Positions 3,001-39,159 of a DNA stretch of 64,000 bases are shown here, one piece after another. Positions within the stretch are counted from its first letter, which is position 1. Every line of letters begins with the position of its first letter. The position numbers and the translations under genes were made by a program. The stretch is from positions 38,758 to 102,757 of IMG/VR virus record IMGVR_UViG_3300031673_000006; one strand, given 5' to 3'. The stretch comes from a virus. The notes below the pieces were generated by a model. The model was not told where the DNA came from, did not search any database, and saw only the letters and a program-made list of their open reading frames with translations.

Positions 3001-6000
3001 ACGGAACCCCAACAGAGCGCCACATCCTTGCCCATGCCCAACTCGCTCCGGTCCTGGTAACCGCCAACCGACGTTGGTGGATTCAAAAAGCTCCGAACCT
3101 GTACCGAATCGCGCGTGAAGACGAGAGGCCGCGCCCCCATATCGAGGGTGTTCGTTTCCCGCCAGAGGTCTTCACAGTGCTCTGGTACGAGGACGACGAC
3201 GGCAATCGCTATGAGATGCCCGAGGATGGTCCCGAGCATCCCGAAGGCGCCAAGTACCAACTCAGCCAGTTCCCGAACTACCTGCACGACAGCATGTTGC
3301 AGCTCAACGAGGATGGCACCTCTACGGAGATCATGAGCGGTCAGCGAGGGTTCCCTGAGGACCTTGTGACCTCCATGGTGCGCAGCGGCGAGTGGGACGT
3401 GGGCGACGCCATCATGGTCGGCGGCACGAGCTGCGAGCGCTGCATGAACGTCTTGTGCAATCGCTACTTGGGCCCGGAGGAAGGCTACCCCTACGACTCG
3501 GAAGAGTATTGGCAGTGCGGGACCCGATGCGCCATGTGTGGGCACGTCGACAACACCAACGAGCGGGTGGTCCGACAGCCCCGCTATGCGTCTCCGAGCT
3601 ACGACAGTTACGTCCAGCGCAAGCGCAGAGAAGGCGGCCCTGTGCTGTCCCGTGATGAATGGGAAGCCAAGGTCATGGGCGTCGAAGATGACGCTGACGA
3701 GACCCCTGAGGCTACCCGTGAAGACTGGGAGGCCCGTCGCAATGCTCTCATGGAGGAGCACGGCCTCGACAAGTTCCATTCGTCGTACCGTCCTGACGAG
3801 AAGCACATGACGATTGACCTCATCTCCGTTCCCAAGGAGAACAAGGGTCAAGGCAGTGCTTCAAAGGCCATGAAAGAGACGCTGGCGTGGGCTGACTCCA
3901 ACGGCGTCACGGTCACGTTGTCGCCAACTTCTGAGTTCGGTGCCTCCAAGAAGCGCCTTGAGAAGTGGTATCGCAGCATGGGCTTCGTGCCGAACAAGGG
4001 GCGCAACAAAGACTTCCGGTTCACAGACGCGATGCTCCGCGAGCCGCAGGCCAAAACGGCCACGAAATCCGATGCGGAGAACGAAGATGAGGCGGTGGCG
4101 AAGATGCTCCGCAAGGAGCCCAAACTCAAGCCTCCGCGCTACGACCTTCGTGACAACCGTACTCTCGACGACGACGACCCTGAGGACGATCTTGGCGGTG
4201 GCGATGACGGCGACCGCGACATGTCCATGAAGTGGAACAAGGTGGCGAGCCGCGTGGCTTTCCGTTGGACAGCGATTGGGCCTCGAGTCCCACGACCTGA
4301 ACGCGTTGCTCGACTGTTCTTGGCGGAGGCGCCCCCAAAGGACAAAGCCCAGCCCAAGAGCGGTCCGAGCTTCGAGGAGTGGGTCAAGAACCAGAAATTC
4401 AAGCACCCTGAGACCAGCAACGATGTTGGGTTCTCATCGCTCCCCTCTGACGAGCAGGCCAAGATCCGCGAGAAGTGGAAGGGTCAGCAACAGCCTGAGG
4501 ATGAGAGCGGCAAGGACAAGGGGAAGGGTGATGAGGATGCGAAGCGCACCAAAGAAGACGTGCAGGTCGACCTCAATAACGCGCGCGACGAGATGCGGGA
4601 CCTAGAGTCCCAGATGGGCGACATCGAGAACGAGATCAAAGACCTCGAGGCCAAACTTAAAGGGTTCAAGCAGTACGAAAATCTCTCAGGCGATGCCAAG
4701 AAGCAGATAGACGAGCATGTTCGGGACACCCAACGTGCCATTGGCCGCAAGAAGGATGAACTTGAGGACAAGAAGGAAGAGTTCGACGAAGCGAAGGAGA
4801 AGGTCAAAGAGCTCAGGGCTGAGCGAAAGGACCCCGGCTTCGCTCAAGCCAAGCGCAAGGAGCAGGCTCGCAAGCAGCGAGCCGAACGGGTGAGCCGTGC
4901 TGTCCTCAAGGCGCAAGGAGACATGCAGAAACTCCTCGGTAACGAGGATACCCAGATCCCAGGGGTCCTTGCCAAGCAGATTGCCAAGGCACTCAACAAC
5001 CTCGATGAGTCTGAGGTGGAGTCCTTTTCGATTGATTTTCAGGACACGCTCCAAAAGTTGATGGGGATGGACTCGAGTTCGGATGAGGCACTTGAGTTGG
5101 CGTCTCAAGCCGCCAAGTTTGGTGACCTCCATGGCCTTACTGATCCGGGGGAGTTGGCCGTGCGAATGGCTCAGCTCAGCTATGCGCAGAACGTCGTCGC
5201 CAATCCGATGAACATCGGGGGAAAGCCGGTCGGCGTCACGGAGATGGACAGTGACAAGTACGCCGAACGTGCTCGCGCATCCTACGACCAGTTTCAGAAC
5301 CTGCCGTCCTCTTTGCGTACGCAGGCTGCGAGGCAAGTGACGGAGGCGCTCGAGGGTCTGGACCCTGAGACGCACCGCTCACAGGAACTCAATGCCATTT
5401 TGACGGGCATGAACCTTGCTCAGGTGGCGGCGACGGGGGACTCCCTCCCAGGGCGCCCTCAACCGAGCAAAGGGATGGCGTCAGTCATCCAAGCGATGGC
5501 TGAAAAGGGCGATGTTGATGCCCTCTTCACTACTTCGGAGGACTACTTTGCAGAGCAAGCTCGCGGGAAGATGGAGAAGAGTCTTGATGACATGACGCCA
5601 CTTGAGGTGGCTCAGTTGGCCACACAAGGGGATTCCAATCACGGCTACGCGGGGATGGTCAAATTGATTGAGGAGGAGTCTACGCCTGATGTCATGAGAG
5701 CCATGATGAAAGACTATCTTATCCAAGACATCCTCAACGATCAGTGGGGCGACCGAGCCATCCGCGACACGATGCAGGCTGCGGGTCTTGTGGATGCTGA
5801 TGACCCCGAGGTACGCGCAGGAGTGGTGGGTGAAGCTAACGAGCGCATGAAGCCTCGGATGGAGCAGATGCTTGAGGCGCGGGAGCGTATTGCTCAAGCC
5901 GAGAAAGAAGGCAAAAAACCGGATCCCGAAGACGAGGCCATTGTTGCAGGCGTCTTGGACAAGGAAAAGGGTACCGGTCTACGTGAGAAGGCGAAGGCTG

Positions 6001-8887: not shown

Positions 8888-9886
8888 ATGCCCAGTCTCT
8901 CCCTACAGCAGACCAGAACGTACATCGACAGGCTCGGTGATCTCGAAAACGAGCTCACCCGATCCTGTCGTGTCGCAGAGGTCATGTCCAAAGGCGCCGA
9001 CAAAGATCAGGCGGCCGCGGGCGGTCGTCTGAAAGACGCCTGCGACTCGGCGCGGGAGCACCTCAAGTACGTCGCGGAGGCGAAGACACGCCTGCTCGAG
9101 TTCGATGGGTTCCTGCATGCGCAAAGCCAGACCATCCGTGAGTCGCTCGATCGACCACACATGGTCTCGTTCATGAACGAGGTGGGCTCCAAACTGGGGC
9201 GCTCCATGGAAAGTCACGTCGAAGCCATCGTCAGCGGTGCCATCGACGCCCTTCGCAGAGTCGCCGGCTCCATCAAGGACATGCGCGATGCGAAGGCTGG
9301 TACCGAGGGCGACGCGTCCGCCAAGGGGAGTGCCAAAGCACTCGACAAGATCTGTGACGCTGCTGAGAAGGCCATTCGAGAAGGGGTCAAGGAGCGCAAA
9401 GCTGCTCCGGCACCTGCTCCTGAGGTCGAAGTTGAAGTCGAAGTCGAACTCGACGAGGAGACCGAAAAAATGGCAGCACATGGTTACAACCTGACAGCAG
9501 GCCTTCCTCCCGAGTTCTTGGAGAATATCCAGAAGAAAAAGGATGAAGCCAAGGGCAAGAAGGACGACGACAAAGAGGACGAGAAAGACGCGGGCAAGAA
9601 AGCCTACGTCCAAGTCCAATACCTGACGGCGGGCCTTCCTCCTGAGTTCCTGGAGAACATCCAGAAGAAAAAGGACGAAGCCAAGGGCAAGAAGGACGAC
9701 GACAAAGAGGACGAGAAAGACGCGGGCAAGAAAGCCCACGGCTACACCCTCACCGCCGACTCCTTGACCCCCGGCAATGAATCCAAAGGCCCCAAGGACG
9801 AGGGCGAAGAAGACGAGGGTTGGGTTCCGGGTCATCGCACCGATGGCAAGGACAAGAAGGCCCACGGCTACACGCTTACTGCGTAG
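8888..9886 (+). CDS. Putative virion protein with internal duplication and HGY(T/N)LTA motifs
   Basis: 332 residues from the ATG at 8888. An in-frame ATG at 8876 would add four residues. The second is preferred because the sequence before it (TGGGACGCCTC) nearly matches that before the unambiguous start at 40648. The N-terminal 170 residues look like long helices. A run of Glu/Val (VEVEVEVEVELDEE) leads to a lysine/acid-rich tail holding two near-identical copies of a 38-residue block that starts LTAGLPPEFLENIQKKK. HGYNLTA or HGYTLTA occurs three times and a variant (VQYLTA) once, at block boundaries and the C-terminus. The highly charged tail fits a scaffold-like or protease-processed head protein. 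Family unknown. Confidence 0.75.
   Translation: MPSLSLQQTRTYIDRLGDLENELTRSCRVAEVMSKGADKDQAAAGGRLKDACDSAREHLKYVAEAKTRLLEFDGFLHAQSQTIRESLDRPHMVSFMNEVGSKLGRSMESHVEAIVSGAIDALRRVAGSIKDMRDAKAGTEGDASAKGSAKALDKICDAAEKAIREGVKERKAAPAPAPEVEVEVEVELDEETEKMAAHGYNLTAGLPPEFLENIQKKKDEAKGKKDDDKEDEKDAGKKAYVQVQYLTAGLPPEFLENIQKKKDEAKGKKDDDKEDEKDAGKKAHGYTLTADSLTPGNESKGPKDEGEEDEGWVPGHRTDGKDKKAHGYTLTA
9491..9736 (+). repeat. Two-copy tandem repeat, period 132 bp, 114-bp units
   Basis: Units 9491-9604 and 9623-9736 differ at only a few, mostly synonymous, positions and encode the same LTAGLPPEF...GKK block. The near identity at DNA level implies a recent duplication inside the gene. Confidence 0.9.
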
Positions 9887-24219: not shown

Positions 24220-24765
24220 TCAGGCGTCAGCTTGAGGCTCTTGTTGTTCGTCGCCGGTGAGGATAGCTAGAGTTCGCGCCACGTCCTCTGGTTGGATGCC
24301 TCGAGCCCAGCTCGTGCGCACGAGATAGGGCGCCATGTGGGCGAAAGCACCGTCTCCCATGTCATCGAGGATGACGAAGTTCTCGACGTTGAGGTGCTTG
24401 TTCTTTACGAGCCAGACTTCGATTTCGAGTCCACGGAGCCCACGGTTCGCCAGGCCTGGCGGCATCTCATTGGAGAGTGGTGTGCGTCCGATGACTTCGC
24501 CGGTGAAGCCTCGGGAACTGAGGTAGCGCTGCATGTCTTCGGGAGTGCAGTGGTAGCGCCACGAGGATGAGATGACGACCTTCGCGTCACCGAGGGCCAC
24601 GATGGCGTTGAGGCGCTCCACGGAGGTGGGGTTGATCATGCGGGTCCACCAGTAGTCGTCTTTGGGGTCCGGTGCTGTGGACGTGTCCGCGTCCAGGTCT
24701 GGATTGGACCCGAAGTACTCGGCGCTGTTGAGCACCCCGTCCATGTCTAGGAACACGACGCGCAT
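24220..24765 (-). CDS. HAD-superfamily phosphatase of the Swiss Army Knife RNA-repair type
   Basis: 181 residues. The N-terminus FLDMDGVLNSAEYF carries the HAD DxDG nucleophile motif, VVISSSWR is motif II, and FVILDDM holds the acidic motif. The order and spacing, with NPTSVERLNAIVALGDAKVV before SSSWR and GRTP and RGLEIEVWL in between, match the HAD domain of SAK RNA-repair proteins, which remove phosphates from RNA ends or nucleotides. Here it stands alone. It is translated with a small membrane protein upstream (TGATG overlap). With KptA at 38.1 kb it suggests phage interest in RNA-end healing. Substrate unproven. Confidence 0.8.
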   Translation of the reverse strand: MRVVFLDMDGVLNSAEYFGSNPDLDADTSTAPDPKDDYWWTRMINPTSVERLNAIVALGDAKVVISSSWRYHCTPEDMQRYLSSRGFTGEVIGRTPLSNEMPPGLANRGLRGLEIEVWLVKNKHLNVENFVILDDMGDGAFAHMAPYLVRTSWARGIQPEDVARTLAILTGDEQQEPQADA

Positions 24766-28415: not shown

Positions 28416-28931
28416 ATGGCCGCCACTTCGCTTGAAATCCTTGAGTACCCCGACCCTCGGTTGACCGCCCCTTGTGTTCCTGTTGGCGTCGCGCAGCTCG
28501 AGACGATGCAGGGGTTCATCGACGATCTCATCTACACGATGTTCTTCTCAGGGGGTGTGGGGCTTGCGGCCCCGCAGGTCGGCAACAACGTACGCATCTT
28601 CACGATTGACCAGAAGCCCATCAACGGGAGCCAGGGCGATCCATGGGTCTTCGTGAACCCCAAGGTCGAGGTTCTCGGCGAGGACATTGAGCGCCGCCGT
28701 GAGGGCTGCTTGAGTTTCCCCGGCGTGTTCATCTTCGCCAAGCGTCCCAAGTGGGTGAGGGTCACGGCCCTTGACCGCCATGGTGTGGAGTTCACGATGG
28801 ACACGACGGGAACGGACCTGCTTTCCTTGGCAGTCCAGCATGAGAACGACCATCTCGATGGCGTCTTGATGTCCGAGTACGCCGACAAGCGCGGTTTGAA
28901 GTCCATCAAGGCCTGGGCGGCTCAGCGGTAG
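28416..28931 (+). CDS. def: Peptide deformylase
   Basis: 171 residues. All three signatures are present in order: GVGLAAPQVG (about 47-56), EGCLSFPG (about 96-103, Cys is a metal ligand) and QHENDHLDG (about 141-149; HExxH with the catalytic Glu written here as HENDH). The enzyme removes the N-formyl group from new proteins. Length is standard. Viral deformylases are known from marine and giant phages and may sustain processing of phage proteins late in infection. It follows the GNAT gene directly and has a start-proximal promoter-like box instead of a Shine-Dalgarno sequence. Confidence 0.95.
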   Translation: MAATSLEILEYPDPRLTAPCVPVGVAQLETMQGFIDDLIYTMFFSGGVGLAAPQVGNNVRIFTIDQKPINGSQGDPWVFVNPKVEVLGEDIERRREGCLSFPGVFIFAKRPKWVRVTALDRHGVEFTMDTTGTDLLSLAVQHENDHLDGVLMSEYADKRGLKSIKAWAAQR

Positions 28932-29638: not shown

Positions 29639-30532
29639 ATGAAAAAGAGCCCCCTCGTCTTGCTAGCCCTCAGCGCCCTCCTCACCGCCGCTTGCGGTCA
29701 ACGTGTCACTGTGGAAACCGGAGAAGTCGGGAAGGTCCTCGGCACTAGCGGTCTTGCAGATCGGGTACAGCAGCCGAGCAGCTTTCGCATGGAGACCTGT
29801 TGGGTCAGTGCGTGTCCGAAGCTCGTCCGTCTCCAGGTCAGCAAGAGCACGACGGTTCTCACCATCGACAGCCTCTACCTCCCGAAGTCCAACGTGGACA
29901 TCAGGAACGTGCAGGTGGGCATCGTCTACGAGGTCAAGTCCGACGAGGAAAGCATCGCGCAGATCTACGAAGAAGTGCGCCCTGAGTCTGTCGAGTCACA
30001 GATCATGTTGATCTCGGCTGAGAAGGTCTACGAGACATACCTTGCTCGCAAAGCTCCCGACGCCATCGTCACCGAGCTGCGCAAGCACACCGTCGAGGAC
30101 GTGCTCAGCAACGTGCCCGAGATTGCACAGGCCACCAAGGCGGCCATCGAAGAGATGCTGGGCGACGCCCCCATCCAAGTCACTGAACTCGGGTTCCCGA
30201 ACGGCATCGGTGAGGTGCCCCGCGAAGTCATCCAAGCCAAGCGCCGTCTCTACGCGGTGGATGAGGAGAAGGCCCGCACCGTTCGTGCGCTCGCGGCGGA
30301 ACTTGAGGTCGAGGCACAACGCCAAGCGGTGCAGAAGGTTCGTGCCGAGAACGATGTGCTCAACGCCAAGATCGCCGGTGTCCCCTACGACGTGTACGAG
30401 CATCTCAAGGTTCAGGAGCGTTTCGCGGACGCCGCCGACGCGATGGCAGAGGCGATCTCCGAAGGCAACCATGACGTGATCGTTCAAGCTCCCGCACCGC
30501 AGCTTCCGGCTGTGAAAGAAGAAGGCAAGTAG
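29639..30532 (+). CDS. SPFH/band-7 domain lipoprotein
   Basis: 297 residues from ATG 29639, with AAGGAA upstream. The N-terminus is a lipoprotein signal (MKKSPLVLLALSALLTAAC, lipobox LTAAC), so the mature protein would be lipid-anchored outside the cytoplasm. The body follows the band-7/prohibitin pattern: VETGEVGKVLG, a TIDSLYLPKSNVDIRNVQVG strand set, EKVYETYLARK, then a long charged coiled coil (VDEEKARTVRALAAELEVEAQRQA) and a C-terminal helix. A GTG at 29600 in frame would add 13 residues and sits 5 nt after a GGTAGTAT box, so two starts are possible. Two small membrane proteins follow. It might remodel the envelope or exclude superinfection; inference only. Confidence 0.8.
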   Translation: MKKSPLVLLALSALLTAACGQRVTVETGEVGKVLGTSGLADRVQQPSSFRMETCWVSACPKLVRLQVSKSTTVLTIDSLYLPKSNVDIRNVQVGIVYEVKSDEESIAQIYEEVRPESVESQIMLISAEKVYETYLARKAPDAIVTELRKHTVEDVLSNVPEIAQATKAAIEEMLGDAPIQVTELGFPNGIGEVPREVIQAKRRLYAVDEEKARTVRALAAELEVEAQRQAVQKVRAENDVLNAKIAGVPYDVYEHLKVQERFADAADAMAEAISEGNHDVIVQAPAPQLPAVKEEGK

Positions 30533-31123: not shown

Positions 31124-32233
31124 ATGGCAGACAAGGCACTGGTTCCTGGTGACCTCGAGCTTCTGAGTGGTGTCGAACACATCAGAAAGCGCCCGGGCAT
31201 GTACGTCGGGGATCTCGGACAGACCGGGGTTCACCACATGCTCTACTGGGCACTCGACGACATCCTCGCTAACGCGCGCGCCGGTCGAGGGAGTTTCGTT
31301 CAGGTCAAGCACTCGCACGACGGCTCCCTGACGATCTCTGATGATGGTAACACTATGCCGTCTCCTGACGAGAGGGGTGCAGGCATCACAGACCGCTTGG
31401 ACAATCTCGTGACTGAGATGCACGCGGGACATGACACTCGAGGCACGGCGCCCAAAGTCCAGCTCCGCGATTGGCTCGTCGTCATCCGAGCTCTGTCCGA
31501 GATGTTCACCATCACCGCGCGTGTGGGGGCTGAGTACTACACGCGAACCTATGCCGCAGGCGTCCCCATGACGGAATGGGAGACGACGGAGGTTCGCAGT
31601 CTCCTCAATCCGAACATGGTGGTCCGGTTCAAACCCGACCCGGAGATCTTCGAGCGTACCGACTTCGTATGGGACCGTATCCGAACTCGGCTCCGACACA
31701 TGGCGGCGACGTACCCCAAGTTGCTGACGGACTTCGTCTACGAGCCCAGTAACAACGAACCCCTGGAGTACGAGCACATCAGGATGCCGAATGGCATGGC
31801 CGATATGCTCAAGGTCATCACCAAGGACGACAGGTTTTACGGCCAGAGGCCCAAGGAACCTTTGCGTCTGTGTGTACAGCAAGATGGGCTTGCGTTCGAC
31901 GTAGCCCTCCAGTGGGGATCGGTTCCCCCTCCTGCGGAGAGCGCGTCCCGACGCATTCATTCGTGGGCCAACACCGTCGAAACGCGCGATGGGTCCCACG
32001 TCCTTGGGCTCAAAGACGCGTTGCGGGAAACGGGGCTTGAGGACGTGCCCTACTACGTTTGCATTTCTGTGTTCGTCCCGCAGCCCAAGTTCGTAACGCC
32101 TACGAAAAACGAGCTCCGCAACCCCGAGATCCGCAGGCTCATTCGGGAGCACTTGACGCCAGCACTGCGGAGGCTTCAAGAGAACGACGGGTTCGCACTC
32201 GACCTTGAGCACATCAGGGGGCGCCGGTTGTGA
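31124..32233 (+). CDS. GyrB/ParE-like ATPase-transducer protein, catalytically degenerate
   Basis: 369 residues, only the N-terminal half of a type II topoisomerase B subunit: no Toprim or tail. LSGVEHIRKRPGMYVGD is a clear GyrB start, and the transducer is recognisable (ALQW, WANTVETRDGSHVLGLKDAL, VFVPQPKF and TPTKNELRN, with the ATP-sensing Lys retained). In the ATP site the helix that normally reads FEVVDNAIDEA reads YWALDDILANA, so the general-base Glu is Trp and the Mg-binding Asn is Asp. The usual glycine-rich lid motif is replaced by HDTRGTAPKVQ. It may bind gyrase or DNA without hydrolysing ATP, perhaps as a dominant-negative modulator of host gyrase. That role is inference. Confidence 0.85.
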   Translation: MADKALVPGDLELLSGVEHIRKRPGMYVGDLGQTGVHHMLYWALDDILANARAGRGSFVQVKHSHDGSLTISDDGNTMPSPDERGAGITDRLDNLVTEMHAGHDTRGTAPKVQLRDWLVVIRALSEMFTITARVGAEYYTRTYAAGVPMTEWETTEVRSLLNPNMVVRFKPDPEIFERTDFVWDRIRTRLRHMAATYPKLLTDFVYEPSNNEPLEYEHIRMPNGMADMLKVITKDDRFYGQRPKEPLRLCVQQDGLAFDVALQWGSVPPPAESASRRIHSWANTVETRDGSHVLGLKDALRETGLEDVPYYVCISVFVPQPKFVTPTKNELRNPEIRRLIREHLTPALRRLQENDGFALDLEHIRGRRL

Positions 32234-32547
32234 TGGAGCACTACGAACAGGTCCAAGACCTTCTGCGCAAGATCCACAAGGACACCATGTTCCGGTCGGA
32301 CCCTGCGCTCGACCACCCTTGCTATGCCGAACTCGTGGGCATGGGCCCCGAGATCGTTCCGGCGCTCCTACGTCAGCTCGAGGAGTTCCACGACCCCGGC
32401 GACTTGTCGATCTGGCACGCCATTTCAGCCCTGTACGCGTTGACCAAGGCCAGCCCAATTCCGCAGGAACACGCCGGCAGGCTGAGGCTCATCATCGAAG
32501 ACTGGCTTGAGTGGGGACGGAAGGAAGGCATCGAATGGGGTTCGTAA
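32233..32547 (+). CDS. Small HEAT-like helical protein
   Basis: 104 residues; the ATG at 32233 overlaps the previous TGA (TGATG). The helical pairs YAELVGMGPEIVPALLRQL and LSIWHAISALYALTKASPI resemble HEAT-type repeats seen in small bacterial proteins of unknown function, ending WLEWGRKEGI. It is probably a protein-protein binding module. Its start coupling to the GyrB-like gene suggests a joint role. The 3' end overlaps the RNase HII start by 13 nt. Confidence 0.7.
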   Translation: MEHYEQVQDLLRKIHKDTMFRSDPALDHPCYAELVGMGPEIVPALLRQLEEFHDPGDLSIWHAISALYALTKASPIPQEHAGRLRLIIEDWLEWGRKEGIEWGS

Positions 32548-33206
32548 TCGGAATCGACGAAGCTGGACGTGGCCCCGTGCTTGGGCCGTTGGTGATGGCG
32601 GCCGTGATGATCACGCCCGAGCAGGAAGCGGAACTTGAGGGATTCGGTATTCAAGACAGCAAGAAGTACGGCAGTGGCAAAAAGGCCAAGCAGGCTCGTC
32701 TCGCAGCTCGTCCTGCGGTGCTCTCCAGGTGCGAGCACAGGATTGTGGTGTTCTCCCCTGAGGAGATCGATCGCTACGTGGAGCAGGGACGCCTTGACGA
32801 TCTTGAGCGCGAAGGGGCCGAACGCCTTCTCGCTGAGATCGGCGCTACGTCCGTGGACAAGATCATCTGCGACGGAGAACCCATCTTCGCTCGACTCCAG
32901 CACCGGTGGCCGAAGCTGGTGGCAGAGAACAAGGCTGACGGTAAGTATGTCTGCGTGTCTGCGGCTTCCATCCTCGCCAAGGTCCGACGTGACGAGCTCA
33001 TGGACGAGATCGTCTGCAAGTACGAAACAGAGTACGGCAAGATTACAGGGGGCGGCTACGTCAACAAGGGGAGTCGAGATTTCCTTGAGGCGTACGAGGC
33101 CAAACACGGAACCCTTCCACCGGAGGCACGCAAATCATGGACGTGGCGGAAGAAGCCAGACTTCGTCGATGGGCCGAGCATCGCCGACATGCTCAACGAC
33201 GCTTGA
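32535..33206 (+). CDS. rnhB: Ribonuclease HII
   Basis: 223 residues from ATG 32535, with GGAAGG upstream. GIDEAGRGPVLGPLVMAAV is the family signature with the first two catalytic acids (Asp-Glu). The third Asp is in IICDGEPI, and SAASILAKVRRDELM holds the conserved Ser and the region of the final acid (Asp-Glu). The C-terminal Trp-Lys-rich part (KSWTWRKKPDF) fits RNase HII. It cuts RNA in RNA-DNA hybrids, removing primers or misincorporated ribonucleotides during replication. Length is standard. It overlaps genes on both sides, so it is embedded in one operon. Confidence 0.95.
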   Translation: MGFVIGIDEAGRGPVLGPLVMAAVMITPEQEAELEGFGIQDSKKYGSGKKAKQARLAARPAVLSRCEHRIVVFSPEEIDRYVEQGRLDDLEREGAERLLAEIGATSVDKIICDGEPIFARLQHRWPKLVAENKADGKYVCVSAASILAKVRRDELMDEIVCKYETEYGKITGGGYVNKGSRDFLEAYEAKHGTLPPEARKSWTWRKKPDFVDGPSIADMLNDA

Positions 33207-33520
33207 AGTCTACCGAGGACCACCTGTTCCACGAGCGCCTCGTGGCTCACTTCGGGGATCGCGTCGCGGAGTTCTCCGTTGACCTGCTCGAGATGTTCCA
33301 CGGCCTCTGGATTGACGGACAACTTCACGGAGCCGGACTCTTGTGCGACCGCTGCGGGGCCACTGAGGGGGTCAAGCTCATCGGGGCCATGACTTCGTAT
33401 ACCGAGACCGAGGACAACCCCGATCCCAATCATCCCACGCCCTACTGTCTCCCCTGCGCCAAAGAGTACGAGGAGCACTGGCAAGAGATGTGGGACGAGT
33501 ACAATGCGGGAAGGCTGTGA
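33203..33520 (+). CDS. Small zinc-binding protein
   Basis: 105 residues from TTG 33203, which overlaps the RNase HII stop (TTGA), the same coupling used elsewhere in this genome; an ATG at 33137 would overlap that gene by 70 nt. The helical N-terminus (FHERLVAHFGDRVAEFSVDLLEMF) is followed by LCDRCG and YCLPCAKEY, two CxxC knuckles that can bind one zinc. It ends acidic. No family recognised. The next gene starts with a GTGA overlap. Confidence 0.65.
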   Translation: MKSTEDHLFHERLVAHFGDRVAEFSVDLLEMFHGLWIDGQLHGAGLLCDRCGATEGVKLIGAMTSYTETEDNPDPNHPTPYCLPCAKEYEEHWQEMWDEYNAGRL

Positions 33521-34035
33521 AACGCGTCTACACCATCGGGCACAGCAACCGCCCCACCGAGCATCTCGTAGCTCGTCTCAAGCGCCATGGGGTCAAGGTT
33601 CTCGCGGACGTGCGCAGCCGACCTTTTAGCCGTCACAACCCGCAGTTCAACCGCTACGAAATCGCAGAGGTTCTGCGCCAAGCGAGCATTCCCTACGTCT
33701 GGATGGGGCACGCGCTTGGGGGGATGCCTGACGATCCGGCGCTCAAGATAGGGGGCCGGGCAGACTACGCGAAGATTCGTCGCTCTCAGCCGTACCAAGA
33801 CGGGCTTGAGGACCTTGTGACAGGGCTGGAGTCCCCGTTGACCCCGGTGGCGCTCATGTGCAGTGAGCAGGACCCATCAGGGTGTCATCGACGACGCCTT
33901 GTTGGTGTCGATCTCGTGAGCCGGGGATACGAGCTCGTGCACATCTTGGGGGATGGTGAGCTGGCGACGGAGCACGACATCCGTGAGGGCACTGGCGAGA
34001 ACCAGCCTTCGGTGCTTGACCTGTTCAGTGATTGA
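33517..34035 (+). CDS. DUF488 family protein
   Basis: 172 residues from GTG 33517 (GTGA overlap). RVYTIGHSNRPTEHLVARL, VLADVRSRPFSRHNPQFN and ALMCSEQDPSGCHRRRL match DUF488 in order, including the Cys-rich ALMCSE..CHR site that is conserved in the family. DUF488 proteins are widespread in bacteria and phages; the reaction is not known, though a nucleic-acid-linked role has been suggested. The C-terminus runs 11 nt into the convergent minus-strand gene. Confidence 0.85.
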   Translation: MKRVYTIGHSNRPTEHLVARLKRHGVKVLADVRSRPFSRHNPQFNRYEIAEVLRQASIPYVWMGHALGGMPDDPALKIGGRADYAKIRRSQPYQDGLEDLVTGLESPLTPVALMCSEQDPSGCHRRRLVGVDLVSRGYELVHILGDGELATEHDIREGTGENQPSVLDLFSD

Positions 34036-35794: not shown

Positions 35795-36124
35795 ATGGCA
35801 GCGGAAGATCGCACCGAAGAACGCAAAGGGGGCGTGGAGCTCAAGGAGCGCGACGAGCAGCGCCTCAAGAAGCCTCGGAAGTACCGGGTGATCATCCTCA
35901 ACGATGACTTCACGCCTATCGAGTTCGTCGTGGGTCTTGTGGTCAACGTGTTCCGCAAGAGCCACGAGGATGCTGCGAGGATTACGCTCGAGGTTCACCA
36001 GAAAGGTGCGGCAGTGGCGGGGATTTACACGCACGAGATTGCCGAAACCAAATGCGCCATCGCACTGTCCTACGCGGCCCAGAACGAGCATCCCCTCCAG
36101 CTCACGATGGAACCCGAGGACTGA
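35795..36124 (+). CDS. clpS: ClpS-like adaptor of the Clp protease
   Basis: 109 residues. After a charged 30-residue N-terminal extension the core KYRVIILNDDFTPIEFVVGL, LEVHQKGAAVAGIYTHEIAE and NEHPLQLTMEPED follows the ClpS fold end to end. The Asn-Asp-Asp of the N-degron pocket and the His of VHQKG that completes it are conserved, so binding of N-degron substrates should be intact. In bacteria ClpS delivers N-end-rule substrates to ClpAP. A phage copy could redirect ClpAP to chosen host proteins or protect phage proteins. A papain-like protease gene follows, which may create new N-termini. Leaderless-type start. Confidence 0.92.
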   Translation: MAAEDRTEERKGGVELKERDEQRLKKPRKYRVIILNDDFTPIEFVVGLVVNVFRKSHEDAARITLEVHQKGAAVAGIYTHEIAETKCAIALSYAAQNEHPLQLTMEPED

Positions 36125-38125: not shown

Positions 38126-38701
38126 ATGGAAGCGAACAAGTTGAAGCAGTACTCGAAGCTGATGAGCCTCGTGCTGCGACATGACCCGGCGAAGATCGGG
38201 ATTGAATTAGACGACGCTGGGTGGACTGACGTTGCGAAGCTCGTGCGACAGGCGAACTCGGTCGAGGTCAAGAGGGGTCGCGGGCTCACGCTCGAGATCC
38301 TCCACGAGGTTGTCGAGAAGAACGACAAGAAGCGGTTTGAAATCTCCGAGGACGGACGCCGTATCCGAGCACGTCAGGGACACAGTGTCCAGGTCGAGCT
38401 CGGGGACGAGAAGCGGGAGCCTCCCGAGTTTCTCTACCACGGCACCCCTGAGAAGTTCGTCGCTGCGATTCGGTCAGGAGGGTTGCTCAAGATGAGTCGC
38501 CATGCCGTTCACCTGTCGCCCGACACGGTGACCGCCGACCGGGTGGGCTCAAGGCGAGGCAAGCCCGCGATCCTGATGATCCGAGCAAAGCAGATGCACG
38601 ACGATGGCCATGCGTTTTACTTGACCGGCAACAACGTCTGGTACACGGACCACGTCCCGACCGACTACATCGTCTGGCCGGGGCACCGTCCCAATCTCTA
38701 G
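38126..38701 (+). CDS. kptA: RNA 2'-phosphotransferase (Tpt1/KptA family)
   Basis: 191 residues, the family's usual size. KLMSLVLRHDPAKIGIELDD and GWTDVAKLV form the N-terminal winged-helix lobe with the first catalytic Arg-His pair (LRH). RARQGHSVQVE holds the second Arg and RSGGLLKMSRHAVHLS the third; ADRVGSRRGKPAILMI and LYHGTPEKF complete the NAD-binding lobe. The enzyme transfers an internal RNA 2'-phosphate to NAD+, as after ligation of damaged tRNA, and can ADP-ribosylate nucleic-acid ends. In a phage it may complete RNA repair. Convergent with the next gene; both stops share one CTAG. Confidence 0.93.
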   Translation: MEANKLKQYSKLMSLVLRHDPAKIGIELDDAGWTDVAKLVRQANSVEVKRGRGLTLEILHEVVEKNDKKRFEISEDGRRIRARQGHSVQVELGDEKREPPEFLYHGTPEKFVAAIRSGGLLKMSRHAVHLSPDTVTADRVGSRRGKPAILMIRAKQMHDDGHAFYLTGNNVWYTDHVPTDYIVWPGHRPNL

Positions 38702-39159
38702 GCGCCGTAGATCTTGATCGATCCGCCTTGCCCTGAGCCGGAGCCAGTGCCGGAGATAAACGTGATGTCGCCTCCTGACATGCCGTTGCCCGCAGTAAGG
38801 AACACAGACCCATCACTGACTGGCGGCGGTGGCGGCGGCGGCTTCGGCATGTCGGCTTCGGGCACCCGTTCCCATGGTCCCTCCATGACTTCGACGGTCA
38901 TGATCAGCTCCTCAACGCTCTCAACGCCCTGAGGAGAGCCTCCTCGCGAGGTTGCCACCGCAGGGCCATGTACGACTTCGGGGCGCTCTGAGAGCGGCAG
39001 ACGCCATTTCTCGAGGCGAACACGATGGCCGGCTTCGCATTGTCTCCGAGCCCATTTGAGGTCCCGTGTTCCCGGGGCTGCGTGGGCAAGGGAAGGAGCA
39101 GCAACGGCGGCCACAGCTCCGCCGAGACCAAAAGCCGAGAGGAAGTTACGCCTACGCAT
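38698..39159 (-). CDS. Exported protein with twin-arginine signal and Gly-rich tail
   Basis: 153 residues. The N-terminus RRRNFLSAFGLGGAVAAVAA, ending SLAHAAPG, has an RR-x-F-L twin-arginine motif, a hydrophobic core and a signal peptidase-like cut after AHA. The middle is helical/basic, then a run of nine prolines (PKPPPPPPPP) leads to a Gly/Ser-rich end (GMSGGDITFISGTGSGSGQG) like the tail-fibre or beta-helix ends of phage proteins. Export by Tat would place it in the periplasm or outer envelope. Role unknown. A GGTAGAGT box lies 5 nt before its ATG. Confidence 0.7.
   Translation of the reverse strand: MRRRNFLSAFGLGGAVAAVAAPSLAHAAPGTRDLKWARRQCEAGHRVRLEKWRLPLSERPEVVHGPAVATSRGGSPQGVESVEELIMTVEVMEGPWERVPEADMPKPPPPPPPVSDGSVFLTAGNGMSGGDITFISGTGSGSGQGGSIKIYGA

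Follow-up and report, generated by a model that had tools for sequence, protein, structure and literature searches.

A solitary GyrB-like protein of a tailed phage with a probably inactive ATP site and a retained N-terminal scaffold

The 64,000-nt stretch of viral DNA analyzed here (the window; positions 38758–102757 of a linear record of 102,757 bp) encodes what is, on well-supported sequence grounds, a solitary and catalytically dead GyrB N-terminal protein. Three findings support this: a second phage has also lost the ATP site, the predicted fold still shows the scaffold, and no match to a partner subunit turned up in records that may be incomplete. In the preferred explanation, given a probability of about 0.4, this phage-borne, stand-alone counterpart of the GyrB 43-kDa fragment has lost its ATPase, has had its scaffold and transducer maintained, and acts on the N-gate of host gyrase. 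Genes for terminase, portal, UvsX-like recombinase, processivity factor, and primase show that the virus is a tailed phage.

Table 1. Features of the GyrB-like gene and its downstream neighbors (window coordinates)
Feature	Position	Strand	Basis
Stand-alone GyrB-like ORF: GHKL domain and transducer, 369 aa, stops before the start of Toprim	31124..32233	+	Profile matches, predicted model, fold match
RKRPGMY motif retained, residues 21–27	31184..31204	+	Alignment
WALDD, residues 42–46: Glu42 to Trp, Asn46 to Asp, Asp45 kept	31247..31261	+	Alignment
Asp73 retained	31340..31342	+	Alignment
ATP-lid region, residues 103–119, GLHGVG motif lost	31430..31480	+	Alignment
Transducer site lacking ~19 residues present in E. 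coli GyrB, common to L013	32027..32050	+	Alignment
PTK in place of the canonical QTK loop; Lys337 kept	32099..32107	+	Alignment
C-terminal transducer helices, best-conserved stretch between both phage proteins	32123..32213	+	Alignment, predicted model
104-aa ORF downstream of the GyrB-like gene	32233..32547	+	ATG overlaps stop of the GyrB-like gene
RNase HII, landmark gene, syntenic in related phages	32535..33206	+	Profile match and synteny

The ORF was matched by Pfam DNA_gyraseB (E 7.7e-10), by the PHROG family for the topoisomerase II large subunit (E 6.4e-19), and by GyrB in the PDB (E 2.9e-28), values that exclude a chance relation to GyrB. The alignment covers the N-terminal half of GyrB only, and the 369-aa ORF has neither a Toprim nor a tail domain. 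Against the model for DNA gyrase subunit B (TIGR01059/NF011501), the protein scored 140.4 bits, below the cut-off of 882.4, with E. coli GyrB giving 1042.1 bits as a control. Of the features that define this subunit, it has the GHKL-transducer fold in its predicted model and lacks Glu42/Asn46, the glycine-rich lid, and Toprim plus tail. The start/stop overlap with the 104-aa ORF (Table 1) suggests translational coupling. Other genes in the window encode a peptide deformylase (28416–28931; E 5.2e-40) that is syntenic in relatives, an upstream Band 7/SPFH lipoprotein-like protein (29639–30532) also present in the related locus L012, a DUF488 protein (33490–34035) matching the PADLOC candidate model PDC-M45B (E 4.2e-49), and a ClpS adaptor (35795–36124; Pfam E 8.1e-29).

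An earlier note, made from the sequence alone, had described a solitary GyrB-like protein with a broken ATP site, and alignment with E. coli GyrB bore this out. The FEVVDN segment of the E. coli protein reads YWALDD (E42W and N46D, with D45 kept), the lid motif GLHGVG aligns with LRDWLV, so that the reported loss of the lid holds, and the RKRPGMY start is kept as the note had stated. Asp73, which by the established numbering we take to be the adenine-contacting aspartate, is also present. In GyrB dimers, Tyr5 of the N-terminal arm caps the ATP of the partner subunit; this residue is not conserved in the window protein or in its homologue L013 from a related phage (record G004). The window protein is very unlikely to hydrolyze ATP, because it lacks the lid, the Glu that acts as general base, and most of the phosphate contacts, and it is itself probably unable to bind ATP. 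With Asp73 and Lys337 still in place, some binding of a ligand is possible, which counts against the preferred explanation.

To compare erosion of the ATP site with that of the rest of the domain, an alignment of 47 canonical rows was used: 44 viral loci (three partial viral rows omitted), E. coli GyrB, E. coli ParE, and a Campylobacter protein, L007. Of its 43 columns with conservation of 90% or more, 14 are ATP-contact columns, and both phage proteins keep three of these, versus 17 of the 29 others (Fisher p 0.027; ATP-contact set fixed after the data were seen). The apparent specificity of the erosion for the catalytic site, judged with this post hoc set, is counted in favor of the preferred explanation. 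The change also stands out among other viral GyrB-like proteins. Glu42, Asn46, and Asp73 are kept in all 47 loci of a first scan (L035–L081). A second scan (L085–L102) returned 18 loci, eight of them on contigs already counted; among the 10 new contigs, Glu42 and Asn46 are kept in nine, and the remaining one (L099) is without that part of the gene. Combined, both residues are kept in 56/57 other viral GyrB-like contigs, with the region missing from 1/57, in scans based on short motifs, including one pattern that required Asp45 and E, W, or A at the Glu42 position.

The AlphaFold model of the window protein (mean pLDDT 87.6, pTM 0.85) was built from a 37-sequence alignment composed mostly of canonical GyrB, which biases it towards the canonical fold. 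An earlier model from three sequences was set aside (pLDDT 39.5). The model matches GyrB 43-kDa fragments, the best being E. coli GyrB43 (4prx; Z 34.5 over 343 residues, VIA), and its confident parts indicate that the predicted protein keeps the 43-kDa fold. Confidence is low for the N-terminal arm and at the site of the lost lid, where residues 102–109 have pLDDT <50. The claim that the transducer is kept stands in part: the domain is retained, but ~19 residues are missing relative to E. coli GyrB (positions 291–308 and 316–317). Between the window and L013 proteins, identity reaches 67% over residues 332–361.

L013 is an intact, full-length homologue with 41% identity (361 aa from the ATG used, where this start codon and the stop codon of a NADAR gene at 5000–5560 of L013 overlap). 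Its Glu42 is replaced by Ala and its lid is lost, and it keeps Asn46 and Asp73. Replacement of both Glu and Asn, as put forward in the earlier note, is therefore correct for the window protein but not for the pair; the shared features are the losses of Glu42 and the lid, together with the transducer deletion. The recurrence of the Glu42 and lid losses in L013 implies that loss of the ATP site was inherited. Pairwise dN/dS (Nei-Gojobori) was ~0.30 between the window gene and L013, at a dS of 2.1 that is near saturation, and 0.29 against a C-terminal piece in another relative, L011. The neighboring RNase HII gene, used as a control, gave ~0.10 against L011 and 0.17 against L013, and the GyrB-like gene thus evolves faster. 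A dN/dS of ~0.3 argues for purifying selection and a functional gene.

The L011 piece (record G002, 9331–9684) lies beside RNase HII, comprises only the C-terminal third of the gene at 54% identity, and showed no good start codon. No copy of the gene was found in L012, a syntenic locus in a 618,736-bp relative (record G003) whose terminase is 73% identical to that of the window phage and whose synteny with the window spans the block from peptide deformylase to RNase HII. Given the size of this relative, the genome of the window phage may be much larger than the record. The remnant in G002 and the absence from G003 mark the gene as accessory and not essential to the lineage; the dN/dS values indicate that it is nonetheless under selection. 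Scans with the single protein confirmed no close relative among viral contigs and gave one Campylobacter match (26% identity) among genome contigs, and further, broader motif scans added no member beyond G004 and G002; scans of this type, which start from short conserved peptides, can miss relatives. In a phage database, 97 records match the window protein, with a best identity of 28.0% among the 40 matches listed, and megablast of 24 kb of the window returned no match.

No gyrase partner of the gene was found. The earlier note had seen no GyrA, Toprim, or tail nearby, and the observation extends to the whole 102,757-bp record, which has no GyrA family match; the only Toprim trace, below the cut-off, falls within a DnaG-like primase. 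A full gyrase gene set elsewhere in the genome, raised by that note as evidence that would speak against its reading, was not seen either, but this result has to be read with the completeness of the records in mind: no GyrA match was found in the four related records, including the 618,736-bp one, and all five records may be fragments. The GyrB-domain matches in the five records are these same GyrB-like proteins, in three of them. It is highly improbable that the protein is the B-subunit piece of a split topoisomerase with its other parts in unsequenced phage DNA. The linear record and the 618,736-bp relative do suggest that much of the genome may be missing, and phage phiXF1 provides a precedent in which gyrB and gyrA are separate, non-adjacent genes. 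Nevertheless, no GyrA match was found in any of the five records, the largest included, and the ATP site is dead.

The protein would act by protein-protein contact rather than catalysis: in the infected cell, it would most likely dock on the N-gate of the host's gyrase or topoisomerase IV. What is left in the phage protein is the scaffold through which canonical GyrB pairs at its N-gate. Pairing with one GyrB N-terminal domain would give a non-productive N-gate, which would slow or retune supercoiling. One study reports that gyrase with one ATP-dead domain still works and supercoils ~10 times more slowly (PMC5983639). By pairing with GyrB, a dead N-terminal domain supplied as a separate protein could thus weaken the activity of the enzyme. 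Several observations count against docking at the N-gate: Tyr5 is not conserved, closure of the N-gate normally requires ATP binding (PMC5983639), the gene is dispensable, and Asn46 is kept in L013. The suggestion made from the sequence, that the protein inhibits host gyrase or serves as a decoy by dimerizing with GyrB, is plausible. A more specific version, in which the ATP-dead mimic plugs the N-gate as a pseudo-subunit, dimerizing with GyrB or ParE of the host and thereby retuning host DNA topology, is rather unlikely; full-text searches listed no account of such a strategy.

Nearly as likely as the N-gate mechanism is that a GyrB N-terminal fold, captured by the phage or by a host element, has been reused as a non-catalytic binding module whose task has nothing to do with gyrase. 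A cellular protein, 3CWV, shows the same pattern and may itself be such a case; the C-terminal helices are the best-conserved part of the phage proteins; and other phage proteins, annotated as RIIA, also have GHKL-type folds (BFVD matches). The canonical residues kept around RPGMY and in the transducer argue in the other direction, suggesting that GyrB-fold surfaces still matter, and no alternative partner was identified. A different role, considered unlikely, is that of a GyrB mimic sequestering a factor of the host or of a rival phage that attacks or protects GyrB, such as a toxin, a modifying enzyme, or a pentapeptide-repeat protein. According to the title of PDB 6zt5, MfpA binds an N-terminal fragment of GyrB, and neighbors of the ADP-ribose/RNA-repair type, KptA in the window and NADAR adjoining the L013 homologue, fit such a role. 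However, the position of Tyr109, presumably the FicT target in GyrB, is Pro in the window protein, and the GyrB-like protein matched no PADLOC family. That the gene is merely a decaying remnant of a former full gyrB is very doubtful: the C-terminal third in L011, the absence from G003, and the faster evolution relative to RNase HII would fit decay, but two full-length ORFs remain intact at 41% identity with dN/dS ~0.3, and their start/stop junctions overlap neighboring genes. Independently of these alternatives, the region of the GyrB-like gene also holds genes of the RNA-repair/ADP-ribose type: a KptA/Tpt1 RNA 2'-phosphotransferase (window 38126–38701), an RNA-repair HAD domain (HAD_SAK_2; window 24220–24765, minus strand), and the NADAR gene of the relative.

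The closest known counterpart is 3CWV from Myxococcus xanthus, titled "DNA gyrase, B subunit, truncated" in the PDB. Like the phage protein, it is a stand-alone N-terminal half of ~370 aa without Toprim in which Glu42 (E42 to F) and the lid are lost and Asn46 is replaced (N46 to V); in the alignment from a chimeric-query match, it reads YFLLDV for FEVVDN and CTS for DDG, and the lid is missing. It has the highest identity among the 50 matches listed (29% over 327 residues; Z 33.2, VIA) and is the best solved-structure match of residues 101–361 of the L013 homologue. Unlike the phage proteins, 3CWV is cellular and has also lost Asp73, and the spacing to its PTK loop suggests that it is without the phage transducer deletion. 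In a 34-protein tree from which L077 was dropped for its long branch, the phage proteins and 3CWV fall on one side of a branch with support of 76/90, on long branches; branching in the 35-protein tree with all rows did not settle the relation. Common ancestry of the phage proteins and 3CWV is therefore weakly supported. Streptomyces plasmid proteins, annotated "ATP-binding protein" or "DNA gyrase subunit B", are likewise stand-alone GyrB N-terminal proteins without Toprim (387–396 aa). Asn46 is replaced in all five examined (R, Y, Y, Y, and W in L005 and L030–L033), but Glu42 is kept in four of the five, the lid is mostly just partly changed, and they form a separate branch from the phage proteins. 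A single clade of phage, 3CWV, and Streptomyces proteins was neither shown nor rejected (p-AU 0.204).

The canonical GyrB/ParE 43-kDa ATPase-transducer fragment shares its fold with the phage protein as modeled, whereas canonical GyrB keeps the catalytic Glu, the Mg-binding Asn, the lid, and Toprim/tail, all of which the phage protein lacks. Another stand-alone GyrB-type domain in a virus is the 392-aa "GyrB-like ATPase domain protein" (Q070G5) of Nile crocodilepox virus, a fold match with just 12% identity. No description of a comparable phage or stand-alone GyrB appeared among the papers listed by full-text searches. Proteins of this type are already known from 3CWV; what is new is a phage lineage with conserved loss of the site and no gyrase partner found. 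That phages make gyrase inhibitors, Gip (Cg1978) and Igy (LUZ24 gp9), speaks for the preferred explanation, with host gyrase a possible target in common; unlike the window protein, these are ~50-aa peptides without GyrB homology (PMC10886550). Binding of the window protein to gyrase, if it occurs, would make it a naturally occurring dominant-negative GyrB and, unlike the small peptides Gip and Igy, a protein route through the N-gate to inhibition of an essential drug target. In that case, a purpose could also be suggested for 3CWV and the Streptomyces plasmid proteins, whose annotations read gyrase B or ATP-binding protein even though key residues of the site are changed.
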